A stretch of DNA of 64,000 bases from Hermatobates lingyangjiaoensis (GCA_026182355.1 JAPFBL010000316.1:62001-126000); one strand, 5' to 3'; shown: positions 4,067-62,129, numbered from the stretch's first letter. Numbers and translations are program-made. The notes: generated by a model from the sequence alone, not told the origin.

Positions 4067-4193
4067 TTTTATAATACGATAAATCCATGGCAATATAAAC
4101 TAAGATAACATTGCAACATTAACTATTTATAATGGAACTACAATTTATATATATATATAGTTATGATTAAACCACAATAAGAATGGGAAACAA

Positions 4194-4236
4194 GACTAAG
4201 ATCTTTCAACCGTAACAAGCGGTCTTCGTCAGAGTC
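4194..4236 (-). ncRNA. Hammerhead-like ribozyme, family A
   Basis: Mirror of the plus-strand motif at 4264-4306. Stem I is GACT/AGTC, core CTGACGA, one extra A, stem II GACCG/CGGTT, then GAA, palindromic stem III AGATCT and T as the residue before the cleavage point. Activity is inferred only. Confidence 0.7.
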
Positions 4237-4263
4237 AAAAACCCAACTGTCAGTTGGGTTTTT

Positions 4264-4306
4264 GACTCTGACGAAGACCGCTTGTTACGGTTGAAAGATC
4301 TTAGTC
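4264..4306 (+). ncRNA. Hammerhead-like ribozyme, family A
   Basis: Complete family A motif: stem I GACT/AGTC, core CTGACGA, extra A, stem II GACCG with CGGTT around loop CTTGTTA, GAA, stem III AGATCT, then T. Because stem III is self-complementary and has no loop, pairing would require two RNA molecules, as described for PLE-linked hammerhead variants. Confidence 0.72.
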
Positions 4307-4466
4307 TTGTTTCCCATTCTTATTGTGGTTTAATCATTGATTGTTGTTTCACGTGTTTATGTGAAATCTTTTTATATATATAGTTATATATAGTTTATAT
4401 AAAATAAGTTACACACATGAACAAGTATGTTCTAAAGGGCAATCTCATCGTGTAAACTTTATTAGT

Positions 4467-4999
4467 GATGTAAGTATTTGGTAAGTATTTGGTAAGTATT
4501 TGGTAAGTGTCATGCAAAACGCAAGACTTACTAAATACTATACTAGTATCATGAAAAGCGTAAACTTTTCCGTTTTTTTTCCCGCAAGAAAATGAAATTC
4601 CTAAGATTCAACTAAGACAGGATAAATTTCATCCGACCATTCATGCCAGTATTGAATAAAAAACACATTGTTATAATGCCTTTGTACAATCACAATATTA
4701 CAGTTCTGTAAATAATCATTGAGCATTTCAAATGCAAGATTATAATCTACAAAACATATTAAAAATTTTCAGAGTTCACCAAGAAGAATCTTTTAAAAAA
4801 CCTCATATTCATTCATAAGTTACCAATTTTTTCTCTTTCATTGTTCTACTAGAAAAAAAGGTTTTAAAAAAACTGCTTTCTCAAGTTTAAAAGAATAATC
4901 TCAGTAAAGAAAATTTACACTTTGCATGATACTAGTATAGTATTTAGTAAGTCTTGCGTTTTGCATGACAAAACACAACACTTACCAAATACTTACATC
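4467..4999. mobile_element. MITE-like element with ~90-bp terminal inverted repeats
   Basis: The left end begins GATGTAAGTATTTGGTAAGT and the right end is its reverse complement. Matching continues through a segment containing ATGCAAAACGCAAGACTT and ACTATACTAGTATCATG. The left arm carries an extra triplication of an 11-bp GTATTTGG-type unit and lacks a stretch present in the right arm. The interior is AT-rich with no coding frame. Target duplication is unclear. Probably a non-autonomous DNA transposon; superfamily not assigned. Confidence 0.65.
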
Positions 5000-6660
5000 A
5001 AAAATAAGAATACATGAAAGATATCTCTTTTCGCATCCACAACATACTATTTGCTTAGGATTTGAGTTATTTCAATTATATAGTATATACTTATTATCAC
5101 ATTTTTTGCATACTTAATTGTTATATAATATATACATTTTCTTATTACATTTATTGTAACAAAATATACCTAAACTCCTCAACTCACTAGTTTATAACGT
5201 AGTTTTTAACCAAAAAATGTATTTAAATATTTTTTTGTTTTCCTGATATTTATCTTATTATTGAATACATTTGTCTGTGAAATATAAAAATACCGCTGCG
5301 GCATGAGTGACTTTTTGCAAAAAAAAACAACTTGCAGTAATTTTTGGAAGTAGGTTTCAGATAAATGATTGCTATTCTTCAGACGTTGACAATGGCTGAA
5401 ATCTGAACAACCCTGCTAAAATATCTAAGTTGGCTTGACTGAACTCATAGGTTACTCCTTTGAACTGTTTAGCCCTGAGTTGTTTTCTAAGACAAAACAT
5501 TGTACAGATAACTTCATATAAAATAAGTAAGCTACCTGTCATAAATTTTGATAGGTAAAACAGTCAAACTCTAATGAGAATACAGTAGATGATTTTTGTT
5601 ATTGTTCTGACACTAAATAAAAATTTAATATTTATGTATGGATAATAATGTTATAGCAATATTTATTCTTTCAAACCAAGATAATAAAAATTTATAAAAA
5701 AACATAAATATATGTTTTTAATTTTCTGTGAATGAGTTAGGGTATGTACATCTATTCAAAATTATAACTTGACTTATCAGTTTCATGTATTGATCGATTG
5801 ATCAATGCTGGCCAAGTTTGTCTGCAGGTGTAAGTTCTTTATAGTTTGAATCATCGAGGAAAATGTTTTCAAGTGAAGTATAACAGCAGTTATGGTTGTA
5901 GTGTTATCTGTCTACCTCAAACTTTTGTTATTCGTGAAGCCCCATTCAGATCTAATGATGCCTTTCTTAAAGCAAATACTTCTTATTGTTATTTCGTAGA
6001 AGTATTTTTCACTCATTCAGAAGTTAAGTTACATTCTACTTATAAGTAAAGTAGGTTTTAAAATGTACTTAATCATCTTTTGTTTTTACTTCAGTTTTTG
6101 TCCCAGCTTTTGACAGAATCAATGTCTTTACAATCTATTGAAAGGCAAACATCGGAAATTTAGCGAATGGTATTGTCCTGTATATGCATTATTGTTCGAT
6201 AATTGAATTATTGAATGCATTGTCTGTAATAGTTAAATACCCAATGATAATAAAACACTAAAGTTTTATATCAAAGCAATCCAGCCAACAGTATAGCGTG
6301 ACATGCTCTGCAATAGTAATTAATTCTCTGCAACATATTTAAACACAAATATAAAAACTCCGTAATTTTAGAAGTAAAGTCATATCTAAAATGAATCTTT
6401 AGTACATATAAAAGAGGTGACCATGGCCTAGCAGCAAGAAGTCTCCAACAGGAAAGTATGGAAACATTGCTTCAATAAAGGATTCTATTACGCTTTCCTG
6501 AAAGGAATTTACAGCTAACTTTAGGATGGTGATCAAAAATGATTATATACAGCCAGGCCTTTCTAGAATCGGAGTCAAATCTAACTTTGCCTGCCCACTG
6601 TGTGGAATTAGGGAAGATATGTCCACTGTACATATACAAAGATGTCCTAATTAAGTGCAG
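5000..6660. other. No gene seen; AT-rich
   Basis: AT-rich DNA with no supported coding region. Short open frames here (for example 5846-6049) show no recognisable motif. A piece at 6028-6050 resembles the R1/R2 border palindrome. Confidence 0.6.
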
Positions 6661-6903
6661 GTCCAGGTTAGGTCAGCGACAACGTGTGCGCCTCTGAACT
6701 GGTGGGTCCAGGGTTCGATACCCACTCTGGCCCTCGATTTATTTACAAGGGAGTTGAATAAATCTGAACTAAGTCGTCTCTCGGAGAGGGCGTTTAAACC
6801 TTCGGTTTCAAGCCTTTACGATGTTAGGTCCTCGTTAAAGACTCCTACTTTTTAAATACAATTGAGTTAGGCAAAATTTAAGACTCTCAATGTAGATTCA
6901 ATG
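6661..6903 (+). mobile_element. tRNA-derived SINE, 3'-truncated
   Basis: The head is tRNA-like with a recognisable B-box GGTTCGATAC and is followed by the same body as the complete SINE at 18909-19233, including a CTCGATTTATT segment, a CTCGGAGAGG segment and a GAGTTAGGCAAAATTTA segment. It ends about 80-90 bp short of the full element. Box A is eroded. Not a functional tRNA gene. Confidence 0.75.
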
Positions 6904-7983: not shown

Positions 7984-8211
7984 ACTGTTACATAAAAAGA
8001 TTTCACATAAACACGTGAAATAACAATCAATGATCAAACCACAATACGAAATGGGAAAACAAGACTAAGATCTTTCAACCGTAACAAGCGTAACAACCCA
8101 ACAGTTGAGTTTTTGACTCTGACTCTGACAAAGACCGCTTGTTACGGTTGAAGGATCTTAGTCTTATATTCTCATTTTCATATTGTGGTTTGATCATTGA
8201 CTGTTACATAA
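7984..8211. mobile_element. Family A insert with 12-bp target-site duplication
   Basis: The insert 7996-8199 is flanked by the identical 12-mer ACTGTTACATAA at 7984-7995 and 8200-8211. The left part is family A in minus orientation with the ribozyme interrupted after stem II. The right part is family A in plus orientation with a near-complete ribozyme. The target is not a TA tract. The duplication is direct evidence of insertion with staggered cleavage, as expected of endonuclease-bearing retroelements. Confidence 0.8.
8121..8163 (+). ncRNA. Hammerhead-like ribozyme, family A, mutated
   Basis: Same layout as other family A motifs, but the core reads CTGACAA (G8 changed) and stem III is AGGATCT with GAAG, so it is probably inactive. 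The GACTCT stretch is duplicated just upstream. Confidence 0.5.
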
Positions 8212-8874: not shown

Positions 8875-8940
8875 AAGATTTCATATAAACACGTGAAATA
8901 ACAATCAATGATCAAACCACAATAAGAAATGGGAAAACAA

Positions 8941-8983
8941 GACTAAGATCTTTCAACCGTAACAAGCGGTCTTCGTCAGAGTT
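8941..8983 (-). ncRNA. Hammerhead-like ribozyme, family A
   Basis: Core CTGACGA, stem II GACCG/CGGTT, GAA, stem III AGATCT all intact. Stem I is AACT/AGTC, one mismatch away from perfect. Confidence 0.65.
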
Positions 8984-8991
8984 GTGTTCTT

Positions 8992-9034
8992 GACTCTGAC
9001 GAAGACCGCTTGTTACGGTTGAAAGATCTTAGCC
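8992..9034 (+). ncRNA. Hammerhead-like ribozyme, family A
   Basis: Core, stem II and stem III intact; stem I GACT faces AGCC, so one pair is a G-U/mismatch. Confidence 0.62.
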
Positions 9035-9087
9035 TTGTTTTCCCATTTCTTATTGTGGTTTAATCATTTATATATATATATATATAT

Positions 9088-9445
9088 ACCACAATTAAAA
9101 GAAACGGTCCAGCGACTTTTTGAAATAAAATAAATTCAAAACGAAGGAAACACACAGAAAGACACAGACATAATAATAATTCGAAGTCGCTGCCCTGTCT
9201 TCTACAAATTTGAGTTTGTAAGTGTGTTTCTTTTACTTTCTGTGTTACCTATCTTCAAATTTGAACTGTTATTGTGTCCAGTTTGGATCGTCTTTCCGTT
9301 TATTAAGTGAATATATATATGACTTGCCGTTGCGTCTACAACGTGCTTGGTCTCCCTTTCTCCTTTCTCCTGAACACGGATTGCCCGAAAATTTGAGTTT
9401 GTAAGTGTGTTTCTTTATTTTGTGTGCTACCTATCTTCAATTTGA
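9088..9445. mobile_element. Mosaic of family B (minus) and family D (plus) PLE ends
   Basis: 9088-9180 matches the family B terminus (AAACGGTCCAGCG, ACGAAGGAAACACACAG) in minus orientation. 9205-9440 is family D, with TTTGAGTTTGTAAGTGTG repeated twice and the tail that includes CAGTTTGGATCGTC. The D ribozyme at about 9367-9400 has CTGAACA for the core, so it is mutated. (TA)n tracts bound the mosaic. Confidence 0.6.
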
Positions 9446-10106: not shown

Positions 10107-10345
10107 ATATATATATAGTTCAATATAGACAAAGAAACCTAGAGAAATCAAAAGAACACACAGTCTCTGGGTCTCCAACCGTCTCTGAACCAGTGCGCTT
10201 GGTTTCCCTCTCTTATCTCTCCTGAAGACGGTTTAAACCGAAAATTAGAGACTGTAAGTGTGTTCTTTTGATTTTTCTATGTTTCTTTGTCTATATTGAA
10301 CTATATTTGTCCGTTTTGGATCGTATTTCCAACGAAAAAGTATAT
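10107..10345. mobile_element. Family C PLE-derived palindrome
   Basis: Outer arms 10108-10163 and 10244-10305 mirror each other (TTCAATATAGACAAAGAAAC and its complement). The plus arm carries the ribozyme and a tail ending TTTGTCCGTTTTGGATCG. Flanked by (TA)n on both sides. Confidence 0.65.
10218..10251 (+). ncRNA. Hammerhead-like ribozyme, family C
   Basis: Stem I TCTC/GAGA, core CTGAAGA, extra C, stem II from GGTTTAAACC, GAA, palindromic stem III AATT, A before the cleavage point. Confidence 0.65.
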
Positions 10346-10455: not shown

Positions 10456-10544
10456 GTACTGTTTTCTTGACCACAAAATATTCACAAAACACTTTTTCTT
10501 TTTCTCGGAGTTTGGTCAGGGTAAATATATGGAATCACCTTTTT

Positions 10545-10582
10545 GCCAACGTTTCGTCTTTATTTCAAGACATCCTCAGGGC
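10545..10582 (-). ncRNA. Hammerhead-like ribozyme, family E
   Basis: Stem I GCC/GGC, core CTGAGGA, extra T, stem II GTCTT/AAGAC with a GAAATA loop, GAA, stem III ACGT, T. It lies about 340 bp downstream of the endonuclease stop, which ties the ribozyme to the PLE 3' terminal repeat. Confidence 0.72.
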
Positions 10583-10923
10583 TATAAACTTACAAAAAAC
10601 AATAAACAATGGACATTTTTTCATTTCTACTTTAAAAACATCATAAACAAATTGTACTTACAAAAAAGTACTTACTGAAGGCTTGGTTCTGTTACATTTA
10701 CAAACAACCGTTAACTGTCATTACATGTGCTGTTCCAAGCGACAAATTATTGAACCACTGTTTTTTTAGTATAATCCATTATATATAAACATATATACTT
10801 ATACACATATTATAATATATATCTATTATAATATGTATCACCATAATATATATCTATAATACATTTATAATAAATTATTATTTTAACAATCCTTAAAAAT
10901 ATAAACTAGATAACATTGCATCT

Positions 10924-12121
10924 TTAACTATTTATGATGGAACTATAAATCCTACTTAAATTGTCTGTATCTGTTTTTCTATTGCAAGTATTATTAGTAT
11001 TTTTGATATGTATCATTTCTTTTATCAATCTTTTATTGTATGAAGTTTCATAATCTAAAATTGATGCATTCTCAAATTGAAATGTGTGTTGATTTTTAAT
11101 TGCATGCGAGGCTAGGGCACAAAACATTTTTTTATTTTTAAAATTCGATTTGTGTAAAGCTAATCTATCTTTTAGATATTGTTTGGTTTGACCTATGTAT
11201 ACATTATTACAATTATTGCAAGGAATAGAATATATTATATTGCTTTTAATTAGTTTGTTGATAGGTGATTTGGTGTTCGTAAAAATGCATGTATTTAATT
11301 TTTTCTTTACTTTATATGTTATTTTAAAGTTAGCTTCCTTAAGTATTTTTCCAATCTGTTCTGTCAGTCCTTTCACATATGTCACTGATCTATACTGTGG
11401 TGAGTTGGTGAGGCCATTATTACTGGAGTGCTGATTTATTTCATTACCTTCTTCAGTGTTTAAATCCGGTGTTATATTTCTATTAGCGTCTACCTGTGGA
11501 GTTATTTCATTATGGTTACTAACTGTTGATCGCATTATTTTATTTATTAAATGGTGCGGGTAATTGTTTTGTTTCAATATATTTTTTACTATATTTAAAT
11601 TTTTCTGTATAAATTGATTATCACATAAATGTATGGCTCTATGTTTCAAAGCTAATGCAGTGTTAATTTTGTGTTTTAGAGGGTGGTGGGATAAAAAATT
11701 TAGGTATCTATCAGATTTTTGTGGTTTACGCCACCAATCGACAACTAGGCTACCCTCCGGATTTCTGTATACTATTGTATCTAGAAATGGGAGGCTACGA
11801 TCTTTTTCTAATTCTATTACAAATTTTAATTTTGAATGGAACGAATTGAAATGGTCCAGTACTGTATCAACCGACTCTTGGGGAATTGTTAAAAACAGGT
11901 CATCTACATATTTATAAATGAAAGGCATTGGAAAAGGTATTACATTAATTACTGTATCAAGAAGGTAATCCATCACTAAATCTGCCAAAATGGGGGCACA
12001 TGGACTACCCATTGCTACTCCATCTATAATTCTGTAATGTTCATTTTCATATAGGAAATAACCCTCTGATGTGCATAACCTAATAATGTTCATAAAGTCT
12101 ATTATAGTTAATTTGGTGCGT
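10924..12121 (-). CDS. Penelope-like reverse transcriptase + GIY-YIG endonuclease, 5'-truncated
   Basis: The frame is open from about 12121 (first Met at 12093) to the stop at 10924 and gives about 399 residues. It copies RNA into DNA at a nick made by its endonuclease. From the first Met: RT motif GVAMGSPCAPILADLVM at residues 25-41, catalytic YVDD at about 62-65, and thumb-like text ending LALKHRAIHL near 156. After a linker comes the endonuclease with IPCNNCNNVYIGQT (Cys pair plus the YIG of GIY-YIG), the arginine in LKDRLALH, and a downstream RLIKEMIHIK with a glutamate in the expected place. The N-terminal RT fingers are missing, lost at the junction with the inverted arm. The C-terminal frame is intact, with no stops, so the copy is young. 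It could not act alone. Expression is not shown. Confidence 0.9.
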
Positions 12122-12125
12122 TAAC

Positions 12126-12382
12126 AATATCTAAAAGATAGATTAGCTTTACACAAATCGAATTTTAAAAATAAAAAAATGTTTTGTGCCCTAGCCTCGC
12201 ATGCAATTAAAAATCAACACACATTTCAATTTGAGAATGCATCAATTTTAGATTATGAAACTTCATACAATAAAAGATTGATAAAAGAAATGATACATAT
12301 CAAAAATACTAATAATACTTGCAATAGAAAAACAGATACAGACAATTTAAGTAGGATTTATAGTTCCATCATAAATAGTTAA
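12126..12382 (+). pseudogene. Inverted duplicate of the PLE E endonuclease C-terminus
   Basis: The plus strand repeats the last ~85 codons of the 10924-12121 frame, from KDRLALHKSNF through the identical C-terminus ending YSSIINS. It is part of the inverted arm and not an independent gene. Near-identity of the two arms implies that they arose in one insertion or by recent conversion. Confidence 0.85.
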
Positions 12383-12722
12383 AGATGCAATGTTATCTAG
12401 TTTATATTTTTAAGGATTGTTAAAATAATAATTTATTATAAATGTATTATAGATATATATTATGGTGATACATATTATAATAGATATATATTATAATATG
12501 TGTATAAGTATATATGTTTATATATAATGGATTATACTAAAAAAACAGTGGTTCAATAATTTGTCGCTTGGAACAGCACATGTAATGACAGTTAACGGTT
12601 GTTTGTAAATGTAACAGAACCAAGCCTTCAGTAAGTACTTTTTTCAATTTGTTTATGATGTTTTTAAAGTACGAGTAGAAATGAAAAAATGTCCATTGTT
12701 TATTGTTTTTTGTTAGTTTATA

Positions 12723-12760
12723 GCCCTGAGGATGTCTTGAAATAAAGACGAAACGTTGGC
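12723..12760 (+). ncRNA. Hammerhead-like ribozyme, family E, inverted arm
   Basis: Exact mirror of 10545-10582: GCC/GGC stem I, CTGAGGA, extra T, GTCTT/AAGAC, GAA, ACGT, T. Confidence 0.7.
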
Positions 12761-12818
12761 AAAAAGGTGATTCCATATATTTACCCTGACCAAACTCCGA
12801 GAAAAAGAAAAAGTGTTT

Positions 12819-13389: not shown

Positions 13390-13912
13390 TCTCTACAGTG
13401 CTTTCAATAATACTCCTTCAATGAAATGAATTCAGTCTTTGTTTGCTAAATGCTTCTTTTTTTTTTAACCTAGTTCGAAGGATTTTAGAAAACGTATTTA
13501 TATACCGTCGATGTTCCATTTATAGCAAACATTGCGTTAACAGCTATCCCTAGGCATGAATAAGAAGATTTATTCTAAAAAAAAAAGAAACTCTTATCCA
13601 CTAAAATTAATTCTTTTTTTTTCCAGTAACGAGAAAATAGTGTTATACAATGATTTTCATAACGATTAAAGTAGTGACTATCGGATTTATCAGTGACCAA
13701 GAAAACCTGTTAGTAAAGTTATAAATAAAATGGATATGTTATCTCGTGACAAAAAAAATTAACTCAACATAAAAATAGAAAATTATTGCAATTGGCATAA
13801 ATACATAACACAGGACATTTAATATATATTAATTTCATATATTCGAATGTTTTTCTTACCTCGACCACATATATTTAACACTATTTTTCGTTCAATAATA
13901 CAACACCTTTAA

Positions 13913-13950
13913 GCCGACGTTTCGTCTATACTTGTAGATATCTTCAGGGC
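13913..13950 (-). ncRNA. Hammerhead-like ribozyme, family U
   Basis: Stem I GCC/GGC, core CTGAAGA, weak stem II (TCTA/TAGA with flanking mispairs), GAA, stem III ACGT, C. Confidence 0.55.
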
Positions 13951-13995
13951 TACATCAAGACAGAATTTTGTATTCTGTAATTCTGTATTGATGTA

Positions 13996-14033
13996 GCCCT
14001 GAAGATATCTATAAATATAGACGAAATGTCGGT
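13996..14033 (+). ncRNA. Hammerhead-like ribozyme, family U
   Basis: As the minus partner, but stem III is ATGT and stem I ends GGT, so it is slightly decayed. Confidence 0.5.
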
Positions 14034-14093
14034 TTAAAGGGGTTGTATTATTGAAGCTAGACCAAACCTTGATAAAAAAGAAAAATAATGTTA

Positions 14094-14124: not shown

Positions 14125-14168
14125 GAACGTATAAGCCACAAGGAAAAGTAAAAAAACACAGAAAATAT

Positions 14169-14204
14169 GCTCTAAGGCCTTTCAATTATATGTCATCAGA
14201 GAGC
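14169..14204 (-). ncRNA. Hammerhead-like ribozyme, family G
   Basis: Stem I GCTCT/AGAGC (5 bp), core CTGATGA, extra C, minimal stem II, GAA, 6-bp palindromic stem III AGGCCT, T. Confidence 0.65.
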
Positions 14205-14224
14205 AAAAAGCTCTCTGATTATTT

Positions 14225-14260
14225 GCTCTCTGATGACATATAATTGAAAGGCCTTAGAGC
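14225..14260 (+). ncRNA. Hammerhead-like ribozyme, family G
   Basis: Mirror of 14169-14204; all conserved parts are intact, but stem II is only about two base pairs. Confidence 0.65.
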
Positions 14261-14339
14261 ATATTTTCTGTGTTTTTTTACTTTTCCTTGTGGCTTATAC
14301 GTTCATTAGTTTCATCACGTGTTTATTGTGATTATATAG

Positions 14340-14689: not shown

Positions 14690-14985
14690 TTTTTAGGCAT
14701 ACCAAATCCTTTGTCACCTTATCTTTTGACTACCCCTCTCACTATCTCACATGACCTAATTACATCAGTGAACGTTACACTGTTCGGTCCTTCATTCCTT
14801 CCATTACGTATGTCATTTTTTGTCTTTCATTTTAATGTATATAATTCTCTTTTATTTTTGTTACTTTTAATTTGTAATTTTTATTATAGAAGTTTACCTG
14901 ACGAAGAACATAAAGTGTTCGAGACGCTTTTTTTTGTGTGGAAACTTTCTTTTGTCTATTTACCCCACTATAATCAATAATACTT
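14690..14985 (+). mobile_element. Family I PLE 3' region, single orientation
   Basis: Matches 34890-35240 over an untranslated stretch (ATCCTTTGTCACCTTATC) and ends in the family I ribozyme region (CTGACGA core, AGTGTTCGAGACGC) and tail TTTTTTGTGTGGAAACTT. The ribozyme's stem III is broken (ACGCTT). Confidence 0.6.
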
Positions 14986-22977: not shown

Positions 22978-23218
22978 AAATCAATGATCAAACCACAATA
23001 AGAAATGGGAAAACAAGACTTAAGATCTTTCAATCGTAACAAGCAGTCTTCGTCCAGAGTCAAAAACCCAACTCAAAACCCAACAGCTGGGTTTTTGACT
23101 CTGATGAAGACCGCTTGTTACGATTAAAAGATTTTAGTCTTTGTTTTCCCATTTCTTATTATGGTTTGATCATTGATTGTTTTTTCACGTGTTTATATGA
23201 AATCTTTTTAGCAATACA
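22978..23218. mobile_element. Family A palindrome, decayed
   Basis: Both arms are present with a longer loop in which AACCCAAC is repeated. The minus ribozyme (about 23017-23061) has two extra bases. The plus one (23097-23139) has CTGATGA but AAA in place of GAA, and stem III AGATTT. Probably inactive. Confidence 0.65.
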
Positions 23219-24178: not shown

Positions 24179-24312
24179 TTCAATGGTTTTTGACTCTGAC
24201 GAAGACCGCTTGTTACGATTGAAAGTTCTTAGTCTTGTTTTCACATTTCTTATTGTTGGTTTGATCATTGATTGTTATTTCACGTGTTTATGTGAAATTT
24301 ATGTGAAGTTTA
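24179..24312 (+). mobile_element. Family A single plus copy
   Basis: Ribozyme region 24192-24234 then the full family A end with CACGTGTTTATGTGAAAT. There is no inverted partner. Confidence 0.65.
24192..24234 (+). ncRNA. Hammerhead-like ribozyme, family A, mutated
   Basis: GACT, CTGACGA and extra A are intact; stem II is GACCG/CGATT with one mispair, and stem III is AGTTCT, no longer palindromic. Confidence 0.5.
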
Positions 24313-26069: not shown

Positions 26070-26276
26070 ATATATGATCAAACCACAATAAGATAATGGG
26101 AAAACAAGATTAAGATCTTTCACCGTAACAGGCGGTCTTCGTCAAAGTCAAAAACCCAACTGAGAGTTTTTTGCAAACATTTTTTTGCTTGTTACGGTGA
26201 AAGATCTTAGTCTTGTTTTCCCATTTCTTATTGTGGTTTGATCATTGATTGTTATTTCACGTATTTATGTGAAATA
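26070..26276. mobile_element. Family A palindrome, partly deleted
   Basis: The minus arm is complete (about 26108-26149, stem II altered by deletion). The plus arm has lost the core and starts at GCTTGTTACGG. The family A end with TTATTTCACGTATTTATGTG follows. (TA)-rich flanks. Confidence 0.6.
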
Positions 26277-39975: not shown

Positions 39976-39983
39976 GGGTTTTT

Positions 39984-40992: not shown

Positions 40993-41425
40993 AGGGGGAT
41001 TTCAAGAATTACGTCTCCAAACAAAAAAAAGTTTAATATGAAACCAACAACGCGTTTCAAACACTTACTGTTCTTCTTCAGGTTAGCATCTAAAATATAT
41101 ACATATCCACGAGCTTTAAGAAGATTACAGTGAATTATTTGAAATTGAATACAATATATGAATGTTGAATTGAACTATTGTGGGGGAATTAATAGTCATT
41201 TTTTATACTAATTCCCTATTTAAAAACTCAATACTTCAATTCAACATTCATATATTGAATTCAATATATGAGCTTTCTTAAGCTCAGAGATACGAGTATG
41301 TATATTTTTTTCAATGATGTTAACCTGAAGAGAAACACTTAAGTGTTCAAAACGCGTTGTTAGTTCCTTATTAAACTTTTTTTTTTGTGTGAAGACGTAA
41401 TTCTTAAAATCCCCTTACATCAGTA
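40993..41425. mobile_element. Family I ribozyme palindrome
   Basis: Arms mirror across about 41209; outer sequence TTCAAGAATTACGTCTCC and complement. The loop region contains nested inverted TATATGAATGTTGAATTG. Ribozymes at 41045-41087 (minus) and 41321-41363 (plus, GAA changed to AAA). Confidence 0.72.
41045..41087 (-). ncRNA. Hammerhead-like ribozyme, family I
   Basis: Stem I CTAAC/GTTGG, core CTGAAGA, extra A, stem II AACA(C)/GTGTT, GAA, 6-bp palindromic stem III ACGCGT, T. Confidence 0.68.
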
Positions 41426-43404: not shown

Positions 43405-43487
43405 ATATTTGACTCCGACGAAGACCGCTTGTTACGGTTGATGAATGATCTTAGTCTTCTTTTCCCATTTCGTATTGCGGTTTGATC

Positions 43488-43521: not shown

Positions 43522-43682
43522 CATTCGCGCTCCGTTCTTCGACGTGGGGAGATCTCTCTCACTTCGTCCTCTCTACTAGTCTACTCTCCTGATGACGAAC
43601 AACAGTTCGAAATATTGAATTCTGTAAGTTTTCTTTGTATTCTCTTTTCTGTGTCGTGCTTTGTGTAATTTAAAGTTATATA
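43520..43682 (+). mobile_element. Family M PLE 3' end, single orientation
   Basis: Unique segment with CTTCGACGTGGGGAG, ribozyme, then a tail GTGTCGTGCTTTGTGTAAT ending at (TA)n. An inverted piece of the tail is at 27236-27262. Confidence 0.65.
43586..43619 (+). ncRNA. Hammerhead-like ribozyme, family M
   Basis: Stem I (C)TC/GA, core CTGATGA, extra C, stem II GAAC/GTTC with AACA loop, GAA, ATAT, T. Confidence 0.62.
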
Positions 43683-44744: not shown

Positions 44745-44950
44745 ATATAATTAAATGGAACTGTCCCGCGGGTTTTAAATAAAAACCAATTATAAAGAAG
44801 GTAGCACACAGATAGACAAAGGAAGGTATAGCCACTCTACCTTCCTGTGGGACTCTTCACCTCCTGATGACGACGATAGTCGAAATATAGAGGTGAGTTA
44901 TTCCTTTGTTTATTTCTATGCTACTTTCATTATAATTGGTTTATATATAT
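44745..44950. mobile_element. Family H ribozyme insert
   Basis: The left arm (GAAGGTAGCACACAGATAG) mirrors the right (TATTTCTATGCTACTTTC), but the minus ribozyme has been deleted: the arm stops at GGAAGGTATAGCCACTC. The plus arm is complete. (TA)n on the right. Confidence 0.68.
44858..44895 (+). ncRNA. Hammerhead-like ribozyme, family H, best preserved
   Basis: Stem I CACCTC/GAGGTG is perfectly paired over 6 bp. Core CTGATGA, extra C, stem II GAC/GTC with GATA loop, GAA, palindromic stem III ATAT, then A. Every conserved position matches. Confidence 0.75.
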
Positions 44951-44974: not shown

Positions 44975-45068
44975 TGTGTTGGGTTTTTAACTCTGACGAA
45001 GACCGCTTGTTACGGTTGAAAGATCTTAGTCTTGTTTTCCCATTTCTTACTGTGGTTTGATCATATAT
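44975..45068 (+). mobile_element. Family A single plus copy
   Basis: GTTGGGTTTTTAACT then complete ribozyme 44989-45031 and the end TGTGGTTTGATCAT at TA-rich DNA. Confidence 0.7.
44989..45031 (+). ncRNA. Hammerhead-like ribozyme, family A
   Basis: CTGACGA, GACCG/CGGTT, GAA, AGATCT intact; stem I AACT/AGTC. Confidence 0.68.
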
Positions 45069-45375: not shown

Positions 45376-45675
45376 AAAGTTCAAAATTGAAGATAGGTAG
45401 CACAGAAAGTAAAAGAAACACACTTACAGACTCAAATTTTCGCGTAATCCGTCTTCAAGGAGAAAAGAGAAAGGGAGACCAAGCACATTGTAGACCCAAC
45501 GGCTAGTAACAGTTACGGTCTACAATGTTCCTGGTCACCCTTTCTCTTCTCTCTTGAAGAAGGATTGCCAAAAATTAGACTTTGTATGAGTATTTCTTCA
45601 CTCTGTGTATTACTCTTCTTAGATTTTGAGCATATATTGGTCCAGTTTGGACTGTCTTTTCGATTTAATGGTATA
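45376..45675. mobile_element. Family D palindrome
   Basis: Minus arm with ACACTTACAGACTCAAATTT and plus arm with a changed core (TTGAAGA) and GCCAAAAATTAG. Centre near 45505. Tail GTCCAGTTTGGACTG ends near (TA)n. Confidence 0.6.
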
Positions 45676-45739
45676 TATATATATATACACTTCAATGTAC
45701 ATAAAGAAACATAGGGAAATTAAAAACACAAACTTGCAG

Positions 45740-45772
45740 TCTCTAATTTTCGTTTGAACCGTCTTCAGGAGA
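45740..45772 (-). ncRNA. Hammerhead-like ribozyme, family C
   Basis: TCTC/GAGA stem I, CTGAAGA, extra C, GGTT/AAAC stem II with an altered base, GAA, AATT, A. Confidence 0.6.
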
Positions 45773-45858
45773 GATAAGAGAGGGAAACCAAGCGCACTGG
45801 TACAGAGACGGTTGGGTCTCCAACACTGTACCAGTGCTTTTGGTTTCCCTCTCTTATC

Positions 45859-45891
45859 ACTCCTGAAGACGGTTCAACCGAAAATTAGAGA
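45859..45891 (+). ncRNA. Hammerhead-like ribozyme, family C
   Basis: CTGAAGA, extra C, GGTT/AACC stem II with single-base loop, GAA, AATT, A, GAGA; stem I 5' strand ACTC pairs in three of four positions. Confidence 0.62.
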
Positions 45892-46289
45892 CTGTAACTT
45901 TGTGTTTTTAATTTCTCTATGTTTCTTTATGCACATTGAAGTGTATTTGTCCATTTCGGATCGTATTTTTATCGCAAAAGTTTAAATATATATACACGAT
46001 ATATATATTATTATATTACATATATAATAGATCTGATTGGTCAATGACTTAAGATGGTGATATAAACTCACCAAAATGTGTTGGGAATAACTCATTAAAC
46101 AAAAACTATTGTGAGCTTACTTTTAAACTAAAAAACCCTCGAATAAAAGGAGAGTTTCACAAGAGTGGAGAAATTTTGTATACAAGTATAGAGATATTTT
46201 GGGTAAAAGGAGATATATCTTTTCTAAATTTTTGTATCCAAGAAGGGCTGCTCCCAACATTTACAAATTTATGTATATCTACCTTTCAA

Positions 46290-46420
46290 AGTCAAATATA
46301 GGTACACTATAAATAAAAAAACTGACTTACAGTCTCTAATTTTTGGTTAAACCCTAATCAGGAGAGTAGAGATAGGGACACCAAGCGCACTTACGAAGCA
46401 ATGGTTGGAGTTATCTATAA
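46290..46420 (-). mobile_element. Family C terminus, decayed
   Basis: ACTTACAGTCTCTAATTTTTG then ACCCTAATCAGGAGAG: the core is CTGATTA and GAA is changed. Flanked by TA-rich DNA. Confidence 0.5.
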
Positions 46421-47314: not shown

Positions 47315-47495
47315 TAAAATGGATAAACAAACAAGTCTCCACACAAATGAAGTTTTATTCAACAGCAATAACGCGTTTCGAACACTTTGTGTTCATCATT
47401 GTGTGAAGCTTTTGTTTTTTTATCCATTTTACTTCAGAATGAGTAAATACTATACAAATACAGATTGTACAACTAATGATTTAATCTATTTAATT
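47315..47495. mobile_element. Family I collapsed palindrome
   Basis: AAAATGGATAAACAAACAAG and complement at the two ends. The minus ribozyme is cut after GTTCATCATTGTG; stem III ACGCGT and GAA remain. End ACAGATTGTACAACTAATGA. Confidence 0.6.
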
Positions 47496-47964: not shown

Positions 47965-48098
47965 TATAAATATATGAGTCGTTATCAGCCTTTGGAGCGA
48001 TTCACTTCTTTTCCTGAAGACGAGGACATCGAAATATAGTAGTGAGTTCAGTGGTTTCCTTTCTATGTGTTCTTTTTTAAATTCCAGTTTATATATAT
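47965..48098 (+). mobile_element. Family W PLE terminus
   Basis: Between (TA)n tracts. Plus-strand counterpart of 31523-31650: TCGTTATCAGCCTTTGGAGC, core CTGAAGA at about 48013, GAAATATAGTAGTGAG, tail TTCTTTTTTAAATTCCAG. Confidence 0.6.
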
Positions 48099-48099: not shown

Positions 48100-48410
48100 T
48101 ATATATCAGCTCAAAAACGAAGAAAAGCAACACACAGAGAAAGAGACACACTTACAAACTCAAATTTTCGGATGATCCGTCTTCAGGAGAAAATAGAAAG
48201 GGCAACCATGCATGCCGGAAACACAACGGCAGGAAACCGTCCCGGCCGGGACGTTTCCAGCGTGCTTGGTTTCCCTTTCTATTTTCTCTTAAAGACGGAT
48301 CATCCGAAAATTTGAGTTTGTAGGTGTGTCTCTTTCTCTGTGTGTTGCTTTTCTTCGTTGTTGAGCTGATTTGCGTCCAGTTTGGACCGTTTTTTCGAAT
48401 TTTGAGATAT
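48100..48410. mobile_element. Family D ribozyme palindrome
   Basis: Minus ribozyme 48159-48189 intact; the plus partner has TTAAAGA for its core. GC-rich centre near CCCGGCCGGGAC. Arms share AGAGAAAGAGACACACTT. Bounded by (TA)n. Confidence 0.68.
48159..48189 (-). ncRNA. Hammerhead-like ribozyme, family D
   Basis: CTC/GAG stem I, CTGAAGA, extra C, GGAT/ATCC stem II with one-base loop, GAA, AATT, T. Confidence 0.63.
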
Positions 48411-48419: not shown

Positions 48420-48515
48420 TATACTTTAACACTGGGAAAAGAACACAGAAAGACACTATTTCGATATTTCGAAAGAACTCACTTCGATATTTCGACATCC
48501 GTCGTCATCATATAT
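48420..48515 (-). mobile_element. Family F terminus
   Basis: ACTTTAACACTGGGAAAAG, a small internal duplication of ATTTCGATATTTCGA, then ACATCCGTCGTCATC. The core is cut by (TA)n. Confidence 0.5.
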
Positions 48516-48556: not shown

Positions 48557-48655
48557 CAATGATCAAACCACAATAAGAAAATGGGAAAACAAGACTAAGA
48601 TCTTTCAACCGTAACAGGCGGTCTTCGTCAGAGTCAAAAACCCAACTGACTCTTT
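48556..48655 (-). mobile_element. Family A single minus copy in (TA)n
   Basis: Complete end and ribozyme (48593-48635), no inverted partner, (TA)n on both sides. Confidence 0.7.
48593..48635 (-). ncRNA. Hammerhead-like ribozyme, family A
   Basis: GACT/AGTC, CTGACGA, GACCG/CGGTT, GAA, AGATCT all intact; the stem II loop is CCTGTTA. Confidence 0.7.
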
Positions 48656-51261: not shown

Positions 51262-51525
51262 ATATATATAAACCATTAAAAAAGATAGCACACAGATAGA
51301 CACAGGAATAACCCACTTCTATATTTCGACCATCGTCGTTCATCAGGAGGCGAAGAGTTCAGCAGGAAGGCAGAGCGGCGACCTACCTTCCTGCGGAACT
51401 CTTCGCCTCCTGATGACGACGATGGTCTAAATATAGAAGTGAGTTATTCCTGTGTCTATCTGTGTGCTATCTTTTTTAATTGGTTTTTATTTAAAAGTCC
51501 GTTGGACCGTTTCATTTAATTATAT
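51262..51525. mobile_element. Family H ribozyme palindrome
   Basis: Arms from AACCATTAAAAAAGATAGC to complement. Minus motif about 51309-51347 has one extra base in the core region (CTGATGAAC). The plus one (about 51406-51443) has CTGATGA but TAA in place of GAA. GC-rich centre. (TA)n on both sides. Confidence 0.65.
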
Positions 51526-51829: not shown

Positions 51830-52072
51830 ACAATTAAAAGAAACGGTCCAGCGGACTGTCATAAAGACAATCATAAAGACACAGACATAACTCACATCGA
51901 TATTTCGACCATCGTCGTCATCAGAGGTGTGAAGAGTGAAGAGTCTGTCGCCGCCTTGCCTTCCTGCGGACTTTTCGCTCTTCACACCTCCTCATGACGA
52001 CGATGGCGAAATATCGATGTGAGTTAGTCTAGTCTTTATGTGTTTTCCTTCGTTTTGAATTTATTTTATAAT
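51830..52072. mobile_element. Family B ribozyme palindrome
   Basis: Minus motif about 51895-51931 has lost a base in the core (CTGATGA preceded by CCTC shortened). The plus has CTCATGA and GGCGAAA. Both probably dead. (TA)n on both sides. Confidence 0.65.
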
Positions 52073-53054: not shown

Positions 53055-53335
53055 GAATTTACGGCCTATTGTTCTTTTAATTGATTTTTTGGATAACCCT
53101 ACCAAAGGCCTTAAGAGTCTTTTAACTCCATGAGGAAGTGGGTACATCAACTCACCATACGTTTTGTTTTCAATGATTATATTTTTTCCGACGTTTCGGT
53201 CATCTTCGACCATCTTCAGGGTATAAAACGTATATACACTATCTTAAAACCTATTCTTTAATTCAGCAGGTAAATTCAATCTCGCATGTATTAAGGAAGG
53301 ACTGTTTCCTAAATATTCCAATTTCAAACTATATA
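53055..53335 (-). mobile_element. Family K PLE 3' region
   Basis: On the minus strand, text GNSPSLIHARLNLPAELKNRF then stop (about 53320-53252) resembles a PLE C-terminus. The ribozyme at 53188-53221 and an untranslated tail to the microsatellite follow. No inverted partner. Confidence 0.5.
53188..53221 (-). ncRNA. Hammerhead-like ribozyme, family K
   Basis: Stem I CC/GG, core CTGAAGA, extra T, stem II GGTC/GACC, GAA, ACGT, C. Confidence 0.6.
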
Positions 53336-53384: not shown

Positions 53385-53500
53385 ATAACACAAGAAAAAG
53401 AACTAACACTCACGATTCTCGATAATTTCGGCGTCTTGCCGTCTTCAGGAATGAAGGAACGGAGACGTAAATGGGTCCACTGGCCGATACAAATATATAT
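53385..53500 (-). mobile_element. Family Q PLE terminus
   Basis: Ribozyme about 53415-53451: ATTC, CTGAAGA, extra C, GGC/GCC stem II, GAA, then ATTATC in place of a palindrome. Outer AACACAAGAAAAAGAACTA. Between TA-rich tracts. Confidence 0.55.
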
Positions 53501-53512: not shown

Positions 53513-53695
53513 GTAAAATTTAGGAGCAGTCCTTCATTGAAACATATTTCATTGAAATATGTTAGACTTACAGTCTCTAATATTTCGTTGAACCTTCATC
53601 AGGAGAGTAGAGATGCTTTTCCTTATCTCTAACCTAAAATTAAAGACTATAAGTTTGTTCACCCCTTTACTCTGTATCTATAGTTTTCTATGATG
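53513..53695. mobile_element. Family C palindrome, decayed
   Basis: Minus: ACTTACAGTCTCTAATATTT, core CTGATGA. Plus: CTTATCTCTAACC without core. (TA)n on the right. Confidence 0.5.
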
Positions 53696-53757
53696 CATAT
53701 ATATATATATACACTTTAACACATAGAAAAGAACACAGAAAGACACTACAGAACTCA

Positions 53758-53791
53758 CTTCGATATTTCGACATCCGTCGTCATCGGGAAG
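53758..53791 (-). ncRNA. Hammerhead-like ribozyme, family F (core variant)
   Basis: Same as 33146-33179, including CCGATGA in place of CTGATGA. Confidence 0.5.
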
Positions 53792-54083
53792 AAGTGCGAA
53801 GTACTCACGTTGAGAAGCAAACTACTACTGGCCTCCAGAGTAACTCGTGGAACCACCGCAATGCTGCTCCCCAGCGGAGGAGAGGAAAAATAGAAATCCT
53901 TCCAATATTTATTTAGAAAACAAGATAAAAAATATATAAAAAATACGAAATAATAATAATAAAAAATAAATAATAATAATAAAATAATAATAATAATAAT
54001 AAAATAATAATAATAATAATAATAAAAAATATAATAATAATAATAATAATAAAATAATAATAATAAAATAAAATAAAAAATAA

Positions 54084-54214
54084 TTAACGGTACAGGTTGA
54101 GACCAGGAAGAGAACGAGCCCCAAGGAGGCATATGAATGCCTCTTCGGAAGCTCTAAGGGTGACATGGGGATTAGACTCGGGGATTTGTTTGAGGATTTG
54201 TACCCTGAAACAAT
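54084..54214 (-). pseudogene. PLE F endonuclease C-terminal fragment
   Basis: FRVQILKQIPESNPHVTLRA then SEEAFICLLGARSLPGLNLYR and stop, about 43 residues and intact in frame. Close to the PLE B C-terminus (LRASEEAYICLLDAR), so B and F are sister families. Confidence 0.78.
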
Positions 54215-54226
54215 CTATATAATATA

Positions 54227-57779: not shown

Positions 57780-58360
57780 ATAACAAACGTCACTGCTTTT
57801 ACAATAAATTTTAAATATTGGTTAATGAGAATTTGTTCGTACAAGGAAACTGGATCGCGGATAATTCCTCACCGAATAAGAAAAAGTAGAGAAATAACAT
57901 TAATTTTCATGAATAGCTATAATAATATAAGTTAGCATGCATAGAAAGCAGTTAATTATTTTACAAGACACTCTTTCTCTGTTTCACACAATGCTCTTTG
58001 ATCATTCCTTCTCAGTATCTATCCCCCCTACACTGTCGACTCGTACTAGACATAACAGTCATTGAGTTGCTCTTTGCCAGGCGAGCAGAGCTGTTCTTCT
58101 TCTAATGATGTCGAAGGTGAAATACTGAAGTGAATTCTGTTGTTGTTTCCCAGTGTTCCTTCTTCTTGATAGTTTTAGAAGCTGTCATAATAGACTGTTT
58201 CTCTTGTTCTTAATTATGTATATATATTTTGATGTACGGAAATGCAGTCGAACTGTTCTTTACAAAACTTTTAAATATTAATATTAATAACCGGTTTTAT
58301 CCTGTTTTGTGTTCTATGTATTTTGGTATACATGTATTTTTGATGTATTTTATATATATA
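57780..58360. other. No gene; decayed ribozyme-like scrap
   Basis: 58090-58170 has CTTCTTCTAATGATGTCG then GTGAAATACTGAAGTGAAT, a likely dead family M/F motif on the plus strand. Confidence 0.35.
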
Positions 58361-58365: not shown

Positions 58366-58468
58366 ATAAAGTTGGGTTTTTGACTCTGACGAAGACCGCT
58401 TATTACGGTTGAAAGATCTTAGTCTTGTTTTCACATATTCTTATTGTTGTTTGATCATTGATTATATA
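58366..58468 (+). mobile_element. Family A single plus copy
   Basis: GTTGGGTTTTTGACT, ribozyme 58382-58424, end TTGTTTGATCATTGATTAT. TA-rich flanks. Confidence 0.7.
58382..58424 (+). ncRNA. Hammerhead-like ribozyme, family A
   Basis: GACT/AGTC, CTGACGA, GACCG/CGGTT, GAA, AGATCT intact; loop CTTATTA. Confidence 0.7.
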
Positions 58469-58519: not shown

Positions 58520-58818
58520 AACATACTAAACAGTCCAAACTGGACAGATAAATCAATGGAAAAGACAAAACATAAAAGAAACGAGAACACATACTGAACA
58601 ATATTTCGAACTGAAGTTCGTCATCAGGAAGAGAGTAGAAAGAAGAAGAAGAGGTACGTGCGTAAGGAGTGAGGATGGAAGGTGAGTCGCCTCACTCCTT
58701 ACGCACGTACCTCTTCTTCTTCTTTCTACTCTCTTCCTGATGATGAACTTGAGTTTGAAATATTGATCCAGTATGTGTTCTCGTTTCTTTTATGTGTTGT
58801 CTTTTTCATTTGTATTAT
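58520..58818. mobile_element. Family M ribozyme palindrome
   Basis: The left arm AAAGAAACGAGAACACATAC mirrors the right. A long central inverted segment GAAGAAGAAGAGGTACGTGC surrounds GTGAGTCGCCTCAC. The minus ribozyme is 58595-58630. The plus one (about 58735-58770) has CTGATGA and GAAC but TTGAGTTT in stem II. (TA)n on both sides. Confidence 0.7.
58595..58630 (-). ncRNA. Hammerhead-like ribozyme, family M
   Basis: CTTC, CTGATGA, extra C, GAAC/GTTC with TTCA loop, GAA, ATAT, T, then GTTC; stem I is weak. Confidence 0.55.
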
Positions 58819-59654: not shown

Positions 59655-59888
59655 GAAAAACGGTCCGGCAGGACAAATAACAATTAAAATAAGCAGTGAC
59701 ACATAAACAGAAACACAACAAAGACTCACTTTTCAATATTTCGACCGTAATATTGACTCTGTTGACTGTCGTCCCTCCGTCAATTCACTTCTTCTCCTGA
59801 GGACGACCGCCATTACGGTCGAAATATTGAAAAGTGAGTCTTTGTTGTGTTTCTGTTTATGTGTCACTGCTTATTTTAATTGTTATAT
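59655..59888. mobile_element. Family N ribozyme palindrome
   Basis: Arms AACAATTAAAATAAGCAGTG and complement. Minus half: CTTTTCAATATTTCGACCG, then cut. Plus ribozyme about 59792-59832: TTCTC, CTGAGGA, extra C, GACCG/CGGTC, GAA, ATAT, T, GA. (TA)n on both sides. Confidence 0.7.
59792..59832 (+). ncRNA. Hammerhead-like ribozyme, family N
   Basis: Core CTGAGGA, strong 5-bp stem II GACCG/CGGTC, GAA, ATAT, T; stem I only two to three pairs. Confidence 0.6.
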
Positions 59889-59899: not shown

Positions 59900-60890
59900 T
59901 ATATATTACCGTATATATATTTATACATATATATAGTAAATAATCTTAGCTGAAGTTATATTTAAAAGATAGATAATAATTCTATCTTTAGTTTTAAAAT
60001 GTAAGAATGTTTATGTATTAATGTTTATATATACATGTGTTTGAACTGTATATATATCCAGTATACATATCTTGAATACTGGATACCTAATTGAATGAGT
60101 ATTCTTTAATACTTTAATATCAAGAAATGTTTCTAGGATTCGATATTACAATTATTTTTCAATTTGTGTAATAATTTTTCTTCAGAATCTTACTATGAAT
60201 ATGGTTCCTGTTATTTCGTCTTATATTTGAAAAAAGATAATTAAAAAGATGGTTACTTTACATTGAAGATGTTTTACAATATTTCCTCGCTAAGGAAGTA
60301 TGAATGATTTGAAGGAGACTTTCCTTTTGACGGGGAATTGCTTGTTATGTGAATAGTGGTCTAAATATCTCGCACGACTGAGTAAGTTCTATTCCTGACA
60401 AGGTTTTGCCGATACTGCTATTCTTTTATCAACATTTCTTAGTCGTTCTGTTGATGTTGGAAACTTTCTTTATTCATCTGCAAATGAAATGGCAACTTGA
60501 ATAAATATTTAAGACAATTCAAACTCACATTATTAAAAATGTGCAATAAGTTTGTTCATTTTTCTTTGATTACAAATTATATTCATCTGATTTAGATTGC
60601 TACTTTTTTTATTGTTTTGGTTTTAAAATAGATGAATAAAACAGATGTATTTGATAAAGATAATATATCAAAACATTTTTTTTTTCAAAAATGCAAAATT
60701 TATTTGAAGAATCAACAGCATAGGAAAAGTAAGTGTTGTGTTAGGGTAGCTTTCATCGGAATACTTTTCTTATATTTGACGGAAAATTAAATAACCATGT
60801 TTTGATTTGATTATCATACTTTCAAAATTATTGTTAATTATTTTTTATACTTATTCATTCCAAACAAATTGAGTTATAATTCATCGGCAC
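59900..60890. other. No gene seen
   Basis: AT-rich DNA without supported features. Confidence 0.5.
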
Positions 60891-60895
60891 AAATA

Positions 60896-61522
60896 CAGTG
60901 ATACCTCAGTTATCGCGGTTAATAGGGACCAGAACCGGCCGAGATAAGTAAAAAACGAAAAGTAGTGTCCTCCTCTCATTTTTTAAAAACCGTACATTTC
61001 TTGTGTATGCATAATGTTAATAAGCCATATATGACAGTATTTGCTACACTTATACTAATATTGAAACCATATAAGTGCATATGTTATCATTTGAACATTA
61101 AAGAATAATTTTAAACATGTAAATAAAATATTAATAGTATAAATAATATATGTAATGTATAAATAATATAAATATGATCTGTATGATATGTATGTAAAAT
61201 ACGTAGATGTAACCAAAGCGTAAATACTCTAAATGTGTTTTTAGAACTCTTTTATTCTAATAACAATTTTTCTTTTGTTAACAAGTACGTCAAGGTACGT
61301 AACTTGATCACGTCTGGCAATAGCCTTTCTTTGCTCGATCTTTATAAATGTTGATGAATCACGTGGAAATGTCAATCAAAGATCGGGATTTTCAGTTCTA
61401 TGGAGTGCGGGCAACTTTCGCGCCACAATTAATCAATTTTGAATTTTCGATAGTTATTTTTGAACCATCGGCGATGTACTAAAGCTGCAATAAATGAACC
61501 GTTATTTAGCGACGGATGACTG
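60896..61522. mobile_element. pogo/Tigger-like non-autonomous element
   Basis: The left end CAGTGATACCTCAGTTATCG followed by GGTTAATAGGGACC and AGAACCGGCC has the look of widespread pogo-family ends. The right end on the minus strand begins CAGTCATCCGTCGCTA and shares CGGTT further in. TA lies immediately outside both ends (60894-60895 and 61523-61524), as expected of TA-targeting Tc1/mariner elements. No transposase frame is left in 627 bp. Confidence 0.68.
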
Positions 61523-61633
61523 TAATAATGTTTGTTATCATTAGTTGTGCAATCCGTAATTGTATGGTATTTACTCATTCAGAGTTAAAATGGATATAAA
61601 CAAACAAAAGTCTCCACACAAATGAAGTTTTAT

Positions 61634-61668
61634 ACGCGTTTCGAACACTTTGTGTTCATCATCAGGAA
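61634..61668 (-). ncRNA. Hammerhead-like ribozyme, family I
   Basis: CTGATGA, extra T, GAACAC/GTGTTC, GAA, ACGCGT; sequence after stem III is truncated, so stem I is missing. Confidence 0.5.
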
Positions 61669-61710
61669 CACACTATAATACTGATTAGATATAATTTGTA
61701 TTATAGTGTC

Positions 61711-61751
61711 TTCCTGATGATGAACACAAAGTGTTCGAAACGCATTGTTGC
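61711..61751 (+). ncRNA. Hammerhead-like ribozyme, family I
   Basis: CTGATGA, extra T, GAACAC/GTGTTC, GAA, stem III ACGCAT (one change), T, GTTGC; stem I weak. Confidence 0.52.
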
Positions 61752-62129
61752 TGTTGAATAAAACTTCATTTGTGTGGAAACTTTTGTTTGTTTATCCATT
61801 TTAACTCAAAATGTTTGTTATTTCTGACAATTTCTAAGAATCTATGTTAAGTAGTCCACCTTCTTCAGAGTATCCCGAGTCTTCTTAAATGCCCCAATAG
61901 CGGATCTACATATTTTTTATTAACTTCTTGATTCTAGCTCAAATTTTAATTTTTATTAACTTTTCAAACTATTAGTCTTTTAACTTTTGTCTTAGTTCTC
62001 TTTTTCTTTCATTTCTTGTTTCTTTTATTTATTACTTGTCAGCTTTCGTTATTCTATTTTTCCTGTACTTTTCCTTCGTATATTAACAGTACTTGCTGTT
62101 GCTGCAGAACATGTTTTCTTTAGTGTTTA

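Follow-up and report, generated by a model that had tools for sequence, protein, structure and literature searches.

A dense field of hammerhead-like motifs, probably borne by remnants of Penelope-like retroelements, in 64 kb of the Hermatobates lingyangjiaoensis genome

A 64,000-nucleotide stretch of DNA from Hermatobates lingyangjiaoensis (GCA_026182355.1, JAPFBL010000316.1:62001-126000), called the window here and taken at its full 64-kb length for all counts, is AT-rich (GC 0.28-0.34 in 4-kb steps) and very probably represents many insertions of Penelope-like retroelements (PLEs), mostly reduced to pseudo-long terminal repeats (pseudo-LTRs) that each carry a minimal type I hammerhead. A covariance model, R1, was built from an alignment (A2) of 15 window copies, with row C6 left out, and matches the window at 83 places at E<=1 and at 75 at E<0.01, the latter including its 15 training copies, or about one hammerhead-like match per 0.85 kb. 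Control DNA from phage T4 and phage K (100 kb) gave no match at E<0.01 and 14 at E<1, the best of them scoring 15.7 bits, while all 75 window matches score at least 17.0 bits. The dense field of such motifs announced in a preliminary description of this DNA is therefore real; its extent, given as 4162..61818, holds roughly, since the field spans 4189 to 62197, slightly beyond that end, and the "roughly forty" copies counted there correspond to the 38 that combine an intact core with a stem II of at least 3 bp but fall short of the 75 matches.

The sequence CTGANGA occurs at 82 sites in the window versus 19.0 +- 4.4 in dinucleotide shuffles. Taken by itself, the excess carries little weight, because phage K DNA likewise exceeds its shuffles (27 sites, 16.2 expected). 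The majority of the sites are members of repeated families built to a common plan: stem I and CTGANGA, a single unpaired base, stem II and GAA, a brief A..T stretch, a non-G cleavage base, and stem I again. A descriptor of this plan (CTGANGA, 0 or 1 nt, stem II, GAA, palindrome A..T, H, stem I) finds 21 places in the window with stem I of at least 3 bp and 30 with at least 2 bp, and none in 40 shuffles or in the reversed window, which bears out the order of stems first proposed. The linker is exactly one base in all 30 of the descriptor matches listed, and dropping the palindrome at a stem I of at least 3 bp yields nothing beyond the 21. That the copies are chance matches in AT-rich repeats has a next to negligible probability: six of 26 clusters formed on sequence only do look like chance, and CTGANGA exceeds its shuffles in phage K as well, but for the bulk of the copies the idea is refuted by the empty shuffles, reversed window and, at E<0.01, phage control. 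The covariance search proposed for the window thus succeeded with the custom model but not with the hammerhead families of Rfam, none of which matches the window at its gathering score or at E<=10; several of the best weak Rfam matches, to microRNA-precursor families, fall on long inverted repeats. The copies, then, do not match the covariance models of the canonical Rfam hammerhead class. Judged by their letters they are members of the minimal PLE hammerhead class, with its core, predicted paired stems I and II, a palindromic, diminished stem III and association with PLEs.

The 75 hammerhead-like copies, each an R1 match at E<0.01, are as follows (coordinates, strand, lineage as assigned by eye from shared tail and flank, peculiarities):

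4189..4240, minus, lineage A
4260..4311, plus, lineage A
8117..8168, plus, lineage A, core broken
8936..8987, minus, lineage A
8988..9039, plus, lineage A
9362..9403, plus, lineage B, core broken
10214..10256, plus, lineage B
10539..10587, minus, lineage E, 3' of the reverse transcriptase-endonuclease open reading frame
12718..12766, plus, lineage E, 3' of the inverted endonuclease fragment 12125..12379
13907..13955, minus, lineage E
13991..14039, plus, lineage E, stem III non-palindromic
14165..14207, minus, lineage H
14222..14264, plus, lineage H
14890..14938, plus, lineage G, GAG for GAA
20332..20385, minus, lineage G, core broken
23012..23065, minus, lineage A, core broken
23093..23144, plus, lineage A, GAA lost
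24188..24239, plus, lineage A, stem III non-palindromic
26103..26153, minus, lineage A, core broken
27145..27187, plus, lineage C, core U4 changed
27395..27446, minus, lineage A, core A9 changed
29534..29576, minus, lineage C, base after GAA changed (A15.1)
29640..29682, plus, lineage C
29802..29843, plus, lineage B
29864..29906, minus, lineage B
29994..30036, plus, lineage B, 3' core broken
30176..30227, minus, lineage A
31578..31619, minus, lineage C
31756..31798, minus, lineage C, 3' of an endonuclease fragment
32995..33037, plus, lineage C, 3' of the inverted endonuclease fragment 32562..32666
33141..33183, minus, lineage C, core U4 changed, 3' of an endonuclease fragment
35125..35174, plus, lineage G, core C3 changed
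35898..35947, minus, lineage G, core broken
36170..36219, plus, lineage G
36676..36727, minus, lineage A, direct array within (GT)n
36786..36837, minus, lineage A, direct array within (GT)n
36966..37017, minus, lineage A, direct array within (GT)n, stem III non-palindromic
37323..37374, minus, lineage A, direct array within (GT)n
39430..39472, minus, lineage H
39541..39583, plus, lineage H
39774..39825, plus, lineage A
39928..39979, minus, lineage A
39980..40031, plus, lineage A
41040..41089, minus, lineage G
41317..41367, plus, lineage G, GAA lost
43407..43461, plus, lineage A, core broken
43581..43625, plus, lineage B
44856..44898, plus, lineage C, stem I 8 bp (also a descriptor match)
44985..45036, plus, lineage A
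45425..45467, minus, lineage B, core broken
45735..45776, minus, lineage B
45855..45896, plus, lineage B
46328..46369, minus, lineage B, core broken
47361..47405, minus, lineage G, 5' core lost
48006..48047, plus, lineage C
48153..48194, minus, lineage B
48281..48322, plus, lineage B, core broken
48486..48510, minus, lineage C, partial
48588..48639, minus, lineage A
51311..51354, minus, lineage C
51402..51444, plus, lineage C, GAA lost
51890..51933, minus, lineage C
51983..52024, plus, lineage C, core broken
53181..53227, minus, lineage E
53412..53456, minus, lineage C, stem III 5 nt, non-palindromic
53569..53610, minus, lineage B
53753..53795, minus, lineage C, core U4 changed, 3' of an endonuclease fragment
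58094..58136, plus, lineage C, core broken
58378..58429, plus, lineage A
58591..58635, minus, lineage B
58729..58773, plus, lineage B
59789..59837, plus, lineage C
61622..61673, minus, lineage G
61706..61755, plus, lineage G, stem III non-palindromic
62155..62197, plus, lineage C

An intact-core test (CTGANGA, GAA, stem III closed by A-U, H at the cleavage position), whose count favours palindromic readings on ties, is passed by 50 of the 75 copies. Stem III is palindromic in 44 of these, with six different palindromes (AGATCT 14, ATAT 13, AATT 6, ACGT 4, AGGCCT 4, ACGCGT 3). Stem II reaches at least 3 bp in 38 of the 50 (35 with a one-base and three with a two-base linker), and stem I at least 2 bp in 34 of those 38; often just 2-4 bp long, stem I is the weak point of the motif. 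A four-base palindrome provides a single pair and a loop of two bases, too few for a hairpin to close in the same molecule; its stem III would have to form with a second copy. The motif that each pseudo-LTR is proposed to carry (CTGANGA and an unpaired base, a short stem II, GAA, a palindrome of 4 or 6 nt as stem III, the cleavage base and a short stem I) would accordingly be half of a pair: two copies would join by their palindromes to form a double hammerhead that cleaves, and in a tandem PLE transcript such cleavage would release unit-length RNA. Double-hammerhead behaviour is described for PLE ribozymes in the available part of PMC6466107. Two weak candidates were the only yield in the window of a descriptor with no linker and an ordinary stem III.

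The association with PLEs comes from seven coding fragments mapped in the window:

10927..12117, minus, 5'-truncated open reading frame (ORF) for PLE reverse transcriptase and GIY-YIG endonuclease (Pfam, related proteins)
12125..12379, plus, inverted fragment with the same endonuclease end as the ORF 10927..12117 (BLAST)
32102..32521, minus, PLE GIY-YIG endonuclease fragment (weak tblastn match to PLE proteins, best E 4.9e-5)
32562..32666, plus, inverted fragment with the same endonuclease end as 32102..32521 (BLAST)
33439..33561, minus, endonuclease C-terminal fragment (matches the ORF at 32102-32521 only)
54105..54215, minus, endonuclease C-terminal fragment (matches the ORF at 32102-32521 only)
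63433..63828, plus, PLE endonuclease fragment, its 3' side beyond the window (BLAST)

The ORF at 10927-12117 (-) unites reverse transcriptase and GIY-YIG endonuclease, as a PLE should, although truncated at its 5' end: RVT_1 is matched at E 1.8e-7 and GIY-YIG at E 5.4e-4 with a score below the cut-off, and 24 relatives were found, some of them listed with both domains. The fragment at 32102-32521 has no Pfam match, and no full-length PLE ORF occurs in the window. For six of the seven fragments the 3' side lies inside the window, and in 6/6 of these testable cases a hammerhead-like copy (10579-, 12726+, 31790-, 33003+, 33175-, 53787-) stands 264-348 nt downstream, the distance being taken between the last position of the BLAST match and the initial C of CTGANGA (or of its variant); since this holds for every testable fragment, the claim that copies sit 3' of the endonuclease was right. 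U4 is changed in two of the six copies. AT-rich arms of 134 nt (31994-32127 and 32663-32796), 99% complementary, flank inverted endonuclease fragments.

The preliminary description needs correcting in its layout: many copies stand in head-to-head pseudo-LTR pairs, most of them with no ORF in between. Orientation is balanced over all 74 neighbouring match pairs (29 same, 23 head to head, 22 tail to tail), and for neighbours less than 300 nt apart the counts are 17 head to head, 12 same and 9 tail to tail. The 17 head-to-head pairs closer than 250 nt include nine whose arms are at least 0.77 identical in an ungapped comparison. When tails were compared in 22 pairs (these 17 and five added), a recognised tail motif was found on exactly one arm in 13, on both in two and on neither in seven; one of the 13 has its tail in the adjoining copy, and in the two pairs tailed on both arms at least one tail lies beyond the TA tract. 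Inverted pseudo-LTRs with a tail on one, as in PLEs, are thus present. Both arms reach a (TA)4 tract in 15 pairs, with an arm difference of 32-43 nt in 10 and of 16-69 nt in the others, and where the tail is clear, the (TA)n of the arm without it mostly follows the start of the core by 73-83 nt. Within 170 nt, (TA)5 is found on the 3' side of 46/75 copies and on the 5' side of 29/75, whereas random places give 11.6 +- 3.1. (TA)n stands at many ends, where it would mask any target-site duplication. A rough BLAST estimate puts the share of the window taken up by repeats around the copies at about 21%. Insertion time and again into (TA)n, including tracts adjoining earlier insertions, would account for the density, and many insertion events may have left two inverted pseudo-LTRs and hence two motifs.

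The only direct hammerhead array noticed in the window, at 36676-37374 (-), consists of four lineage A copies split by (GT)n with spacings of 110, 180 and 357 nt. It could recall non-autonomous retrozymes, in which tandem hammerhead units give small circular RNAs, and it is the point in favour of such an origin, which is nevertheless very unlikely: inverted pairs account for many copies, the stem III is a minimal one, none of the Rfam hammerhead families matches, and this single, irregular, four-copy array of the minimal motif differs from the direct tandem units of a retrozyme, which are 150-450 bp long and have a canonical hammerhead. Metazoan retrozymes, as presented in the accessible portion of PMC7229834, likewise are hammerhead-bearing repeats, but they are tandem and have canonical type I hammerheads, whereas the window has frequent inverted pairs and a minimal motif.

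At 59677-59886, 75-bp inverted arms are 100% complementary, and the minus arm holds the 3' half only of a lineage C hammerhead, the junction lying inside the motif. At 43116-43370, 75-bp inverted arms surround a CGAAACGTTTGG-type stretch, where CTGANGA is absent; it may represent a truncated pair of pseudo-LTRs.

Stems I and II covary in the hammerhead-like copies. Standard pairs make up 89.6% of pair cells across the 15 model copies; the covariation score of these copies, 0.548, compares with 0.213 +- 0.031 in shuffles, 0/500 of which reach it, and drops to at most 0.126 when the pairing partner is slid. CTGA, G8, A9, GAA, A15.1 and U16.1 are invariant in the 15 aligned copies.

Several observations weigh against the interpretation as PLE-borne hammerheads, or against parts of it. 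The 15 model copies were chosen with pairing in view; two of five shuffle measures were less extreme (9 and 10 of 500), two outer stem I pairs fail in 4/15 and 7/15 copies, and the single stem III pair is invariant and, never varying, offers no covariation test. Because of the way in which the 15 copies were chosen, the stem II test was redone on clusters defined by sequence only (CTGANGA then GAAA; 59 sites, 26 clusters at 70% identity, 24 of them long enough to test), with chance-looking clusters kept in. With a one-base linker, 2.00 of 3 pairs form versus 1.59 +- 0.12 expected (p=0.0005, 2000 permutations); linkers of 0 and 2 gave p=0.19 and p=0.06. The claim that structure is conserved where sequence is not is sustained by this result. 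Stem I fares less well: its duplex beats shuffled 26-nt flanks (z below -2) in only 4/26 representatives, and several of 16 unconstrained single-copy folds depart from the hammerhead. A second model, R2, trained on lineage B/C only and intended as cross-validation, generalises weakly, with one copy of other lineages at E<0.01, three more at E 0.015-0.13 and no lineage A copy; it adds three places beyond R1's E<0.01 set (25696-, 25835+, 10034-), which were excluded from the count. Arm identity in the remaining close head-to-head pairs is 0.28-0.61 (ungapped). Furthermore, 25/75 copies fail the intact-core test, and 4163-4370, the one palindromic locus that was folded, gives a hairpin with some 85 bp (-161.6 kcal/mol, z -27.8) in which the ribozyme pairs with its own antisense and the motif is buried, after which the idea that palindromic copies act in place was set aside. 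Since a third of the copies fail the core test and the motif at 4163-4370 is buried, a field of active ribozymes is not established.

These last two observations, together with the want of a full-length PLE ORF in the window, make it fairly probable that the copies are fossils of a few ancestral ribozyme-bearing pseudo-LTRs that were multiplied, so that their density would say nothing about local ribozyme activity. The 50 intact cores and arms up to 100% complementary, on the other side, suggest that some insertions are recent; moreover, a fossil origin concerns present activity only and is compatible with PLE pseudo-LTRs as the source of the field. The experimental record also bears on activity: according to the available text of PMC11167929, the hammerhead of the Anolis carolinensis Poseidon element (PAc) required protein for cleavage, and insertion in vitro still took place when it was mutated. 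Along with the weakness of stem I in many families, these anole results speak for a protein-binding or template-folding signal for the PLE protein, whose shape would be kept while cleavage is weak or incidental. This is unlikely, as the invariant bases coincide with the catalytic core, and a hairpin that served for binding should not need so many.

The interpretation as minimal PLE hammerheads also has to be set beside known systems. Such ribozymes were reportedly described by Cervera and De la Pena in 2014 and by Lunse, Weinberg and Breaker in 2017. As had been said of the window at the outset, PLE-borne hammerheads are a known kind, minimal ones being recorded in the consulted parts of PMC6155905 and PMC7229834 and one in that of PMC11167929; what is unusual is the local density and the frequent mirror-image pairing. 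The window copies resemble the known minimal hammerheads in core, diminished palindromic stem III and PLE context, with action as dimers expected, and differ in that several lineages stand side by side at the density given above. In the coral Acropora millepora, more than 6000 type I hammerheads of 16 families are counted genome-wide in the accessible portion of PMC7229834. PAc is alike in containing a hammerhead, and the 26 bp reported from its start codon to the cut site would fit a start at A9-linker-G, which the letters of lineage E would allow; it is unlike the window, which has no intact ORF and whose ribozyme activity is a prediction (PMC11167929, in part). Penelope of Adineta vaga, in the excerpts available of PMC3846280, has inverted pseudo-LTRs with a 31-bp tail on one and head-to-head palindromes ascribed to self-priming. 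The head-to-head inversion, one-sided tail and junction palindromes are shared with the window, whose pairs in contrast are mostly ORF-less and in many cases adjoin (TA)n. Open-licence literature, consisting mostly of titles and abstract openings, yielded nothing on ORF-less head-to-head hammerhead pairs.

A single locus here presents closely packed natural variants of a very small hammerhead, their stems changed and their core kept, which suits asking which stem I and palindrome lengths still permit cleavage. The head-to-head pairs, one-sided tails and (TA)n beyond them bear on how PLEs are copied, a question left open in the available parts of PMC3846280 and PMC11167929. If transcribed, ORF-less palindromes could give long double-stranded RNA, from which small RNAs against PLEs might arise.

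By shared tail and flank the copies appear to fall into about four lineages, A/H, B/C, E and G. The number of families varies, because it depends on the identity threshold: at 70% identity 20 of the 26 clusters are hammerhead-like by eye and six chance-like, so that "at least a dozen families" agrees with the clusters but not with the lineages. A splice-donor consensus, GTRAGT, lies 4-8 nt past the predicted cleavage site in 13/17 lineage B/C representatives, which include near relatives and are not independent, and in 0/9 others (for C6 and B6, 2/26, the offset is one base further on than scored); its background is 0.00065 per position. It falls within or adjoining the 3' strand of stem I, as at 33032-33037 (+) and 10254-10259 (+). 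Beyond the donor the lineage B/C pseudo-LTR is, by eye, pyrimidine-rich and AG-poor; few copies have a plausible nearby splice acceptor and most have no convincing one. A coupling of the ribozyme to splicing through this donor is a quite improbable reading of the letters: a folded stem I would mask the donor and cleavage would separate it from its exon, so that a transcript would be either spliced to mRNA or cut to template RNA, never both. PLE introns are already on record, to go by a 2003 title in the reference list of PMC3846280, and the "splice donor" in the accessible part of PMC6431247 has the context of gene capture. Nothing on a splice donor beside a PLE hammerhead was found in open-licence literature, again mostly titles and abstract openings.

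Two kinds of candidates were rejected. Family X (27542-, 27697+, 51574-, 51741+) has CTGAAGA and no GAA and was not counted as hammerhead-like; at 27518-27726 and 51560-51760 a half-motif, GAAACGTTGG or AAAACGTTGG, stands upstream in 3/4 copies. A degenerate-pattern match in one viral contig was read as chance, the surrounding DNA being, on inspection, phage-like, and no PLE relative was found in the viral contigs searched. Elsewhere in the window, a tRNA-like stretch at ~6670-6740, for which ARAGORN reported no tRNA in the window, may by eye be the head of a short interspersed nuclear element; three (GTGG)n arrays are nearly evenly spaced (57-115, 904-974, 1781-1850), and a 113-bp satellite occupies 16810-17435 in 5.5 copies that are 97% alike.

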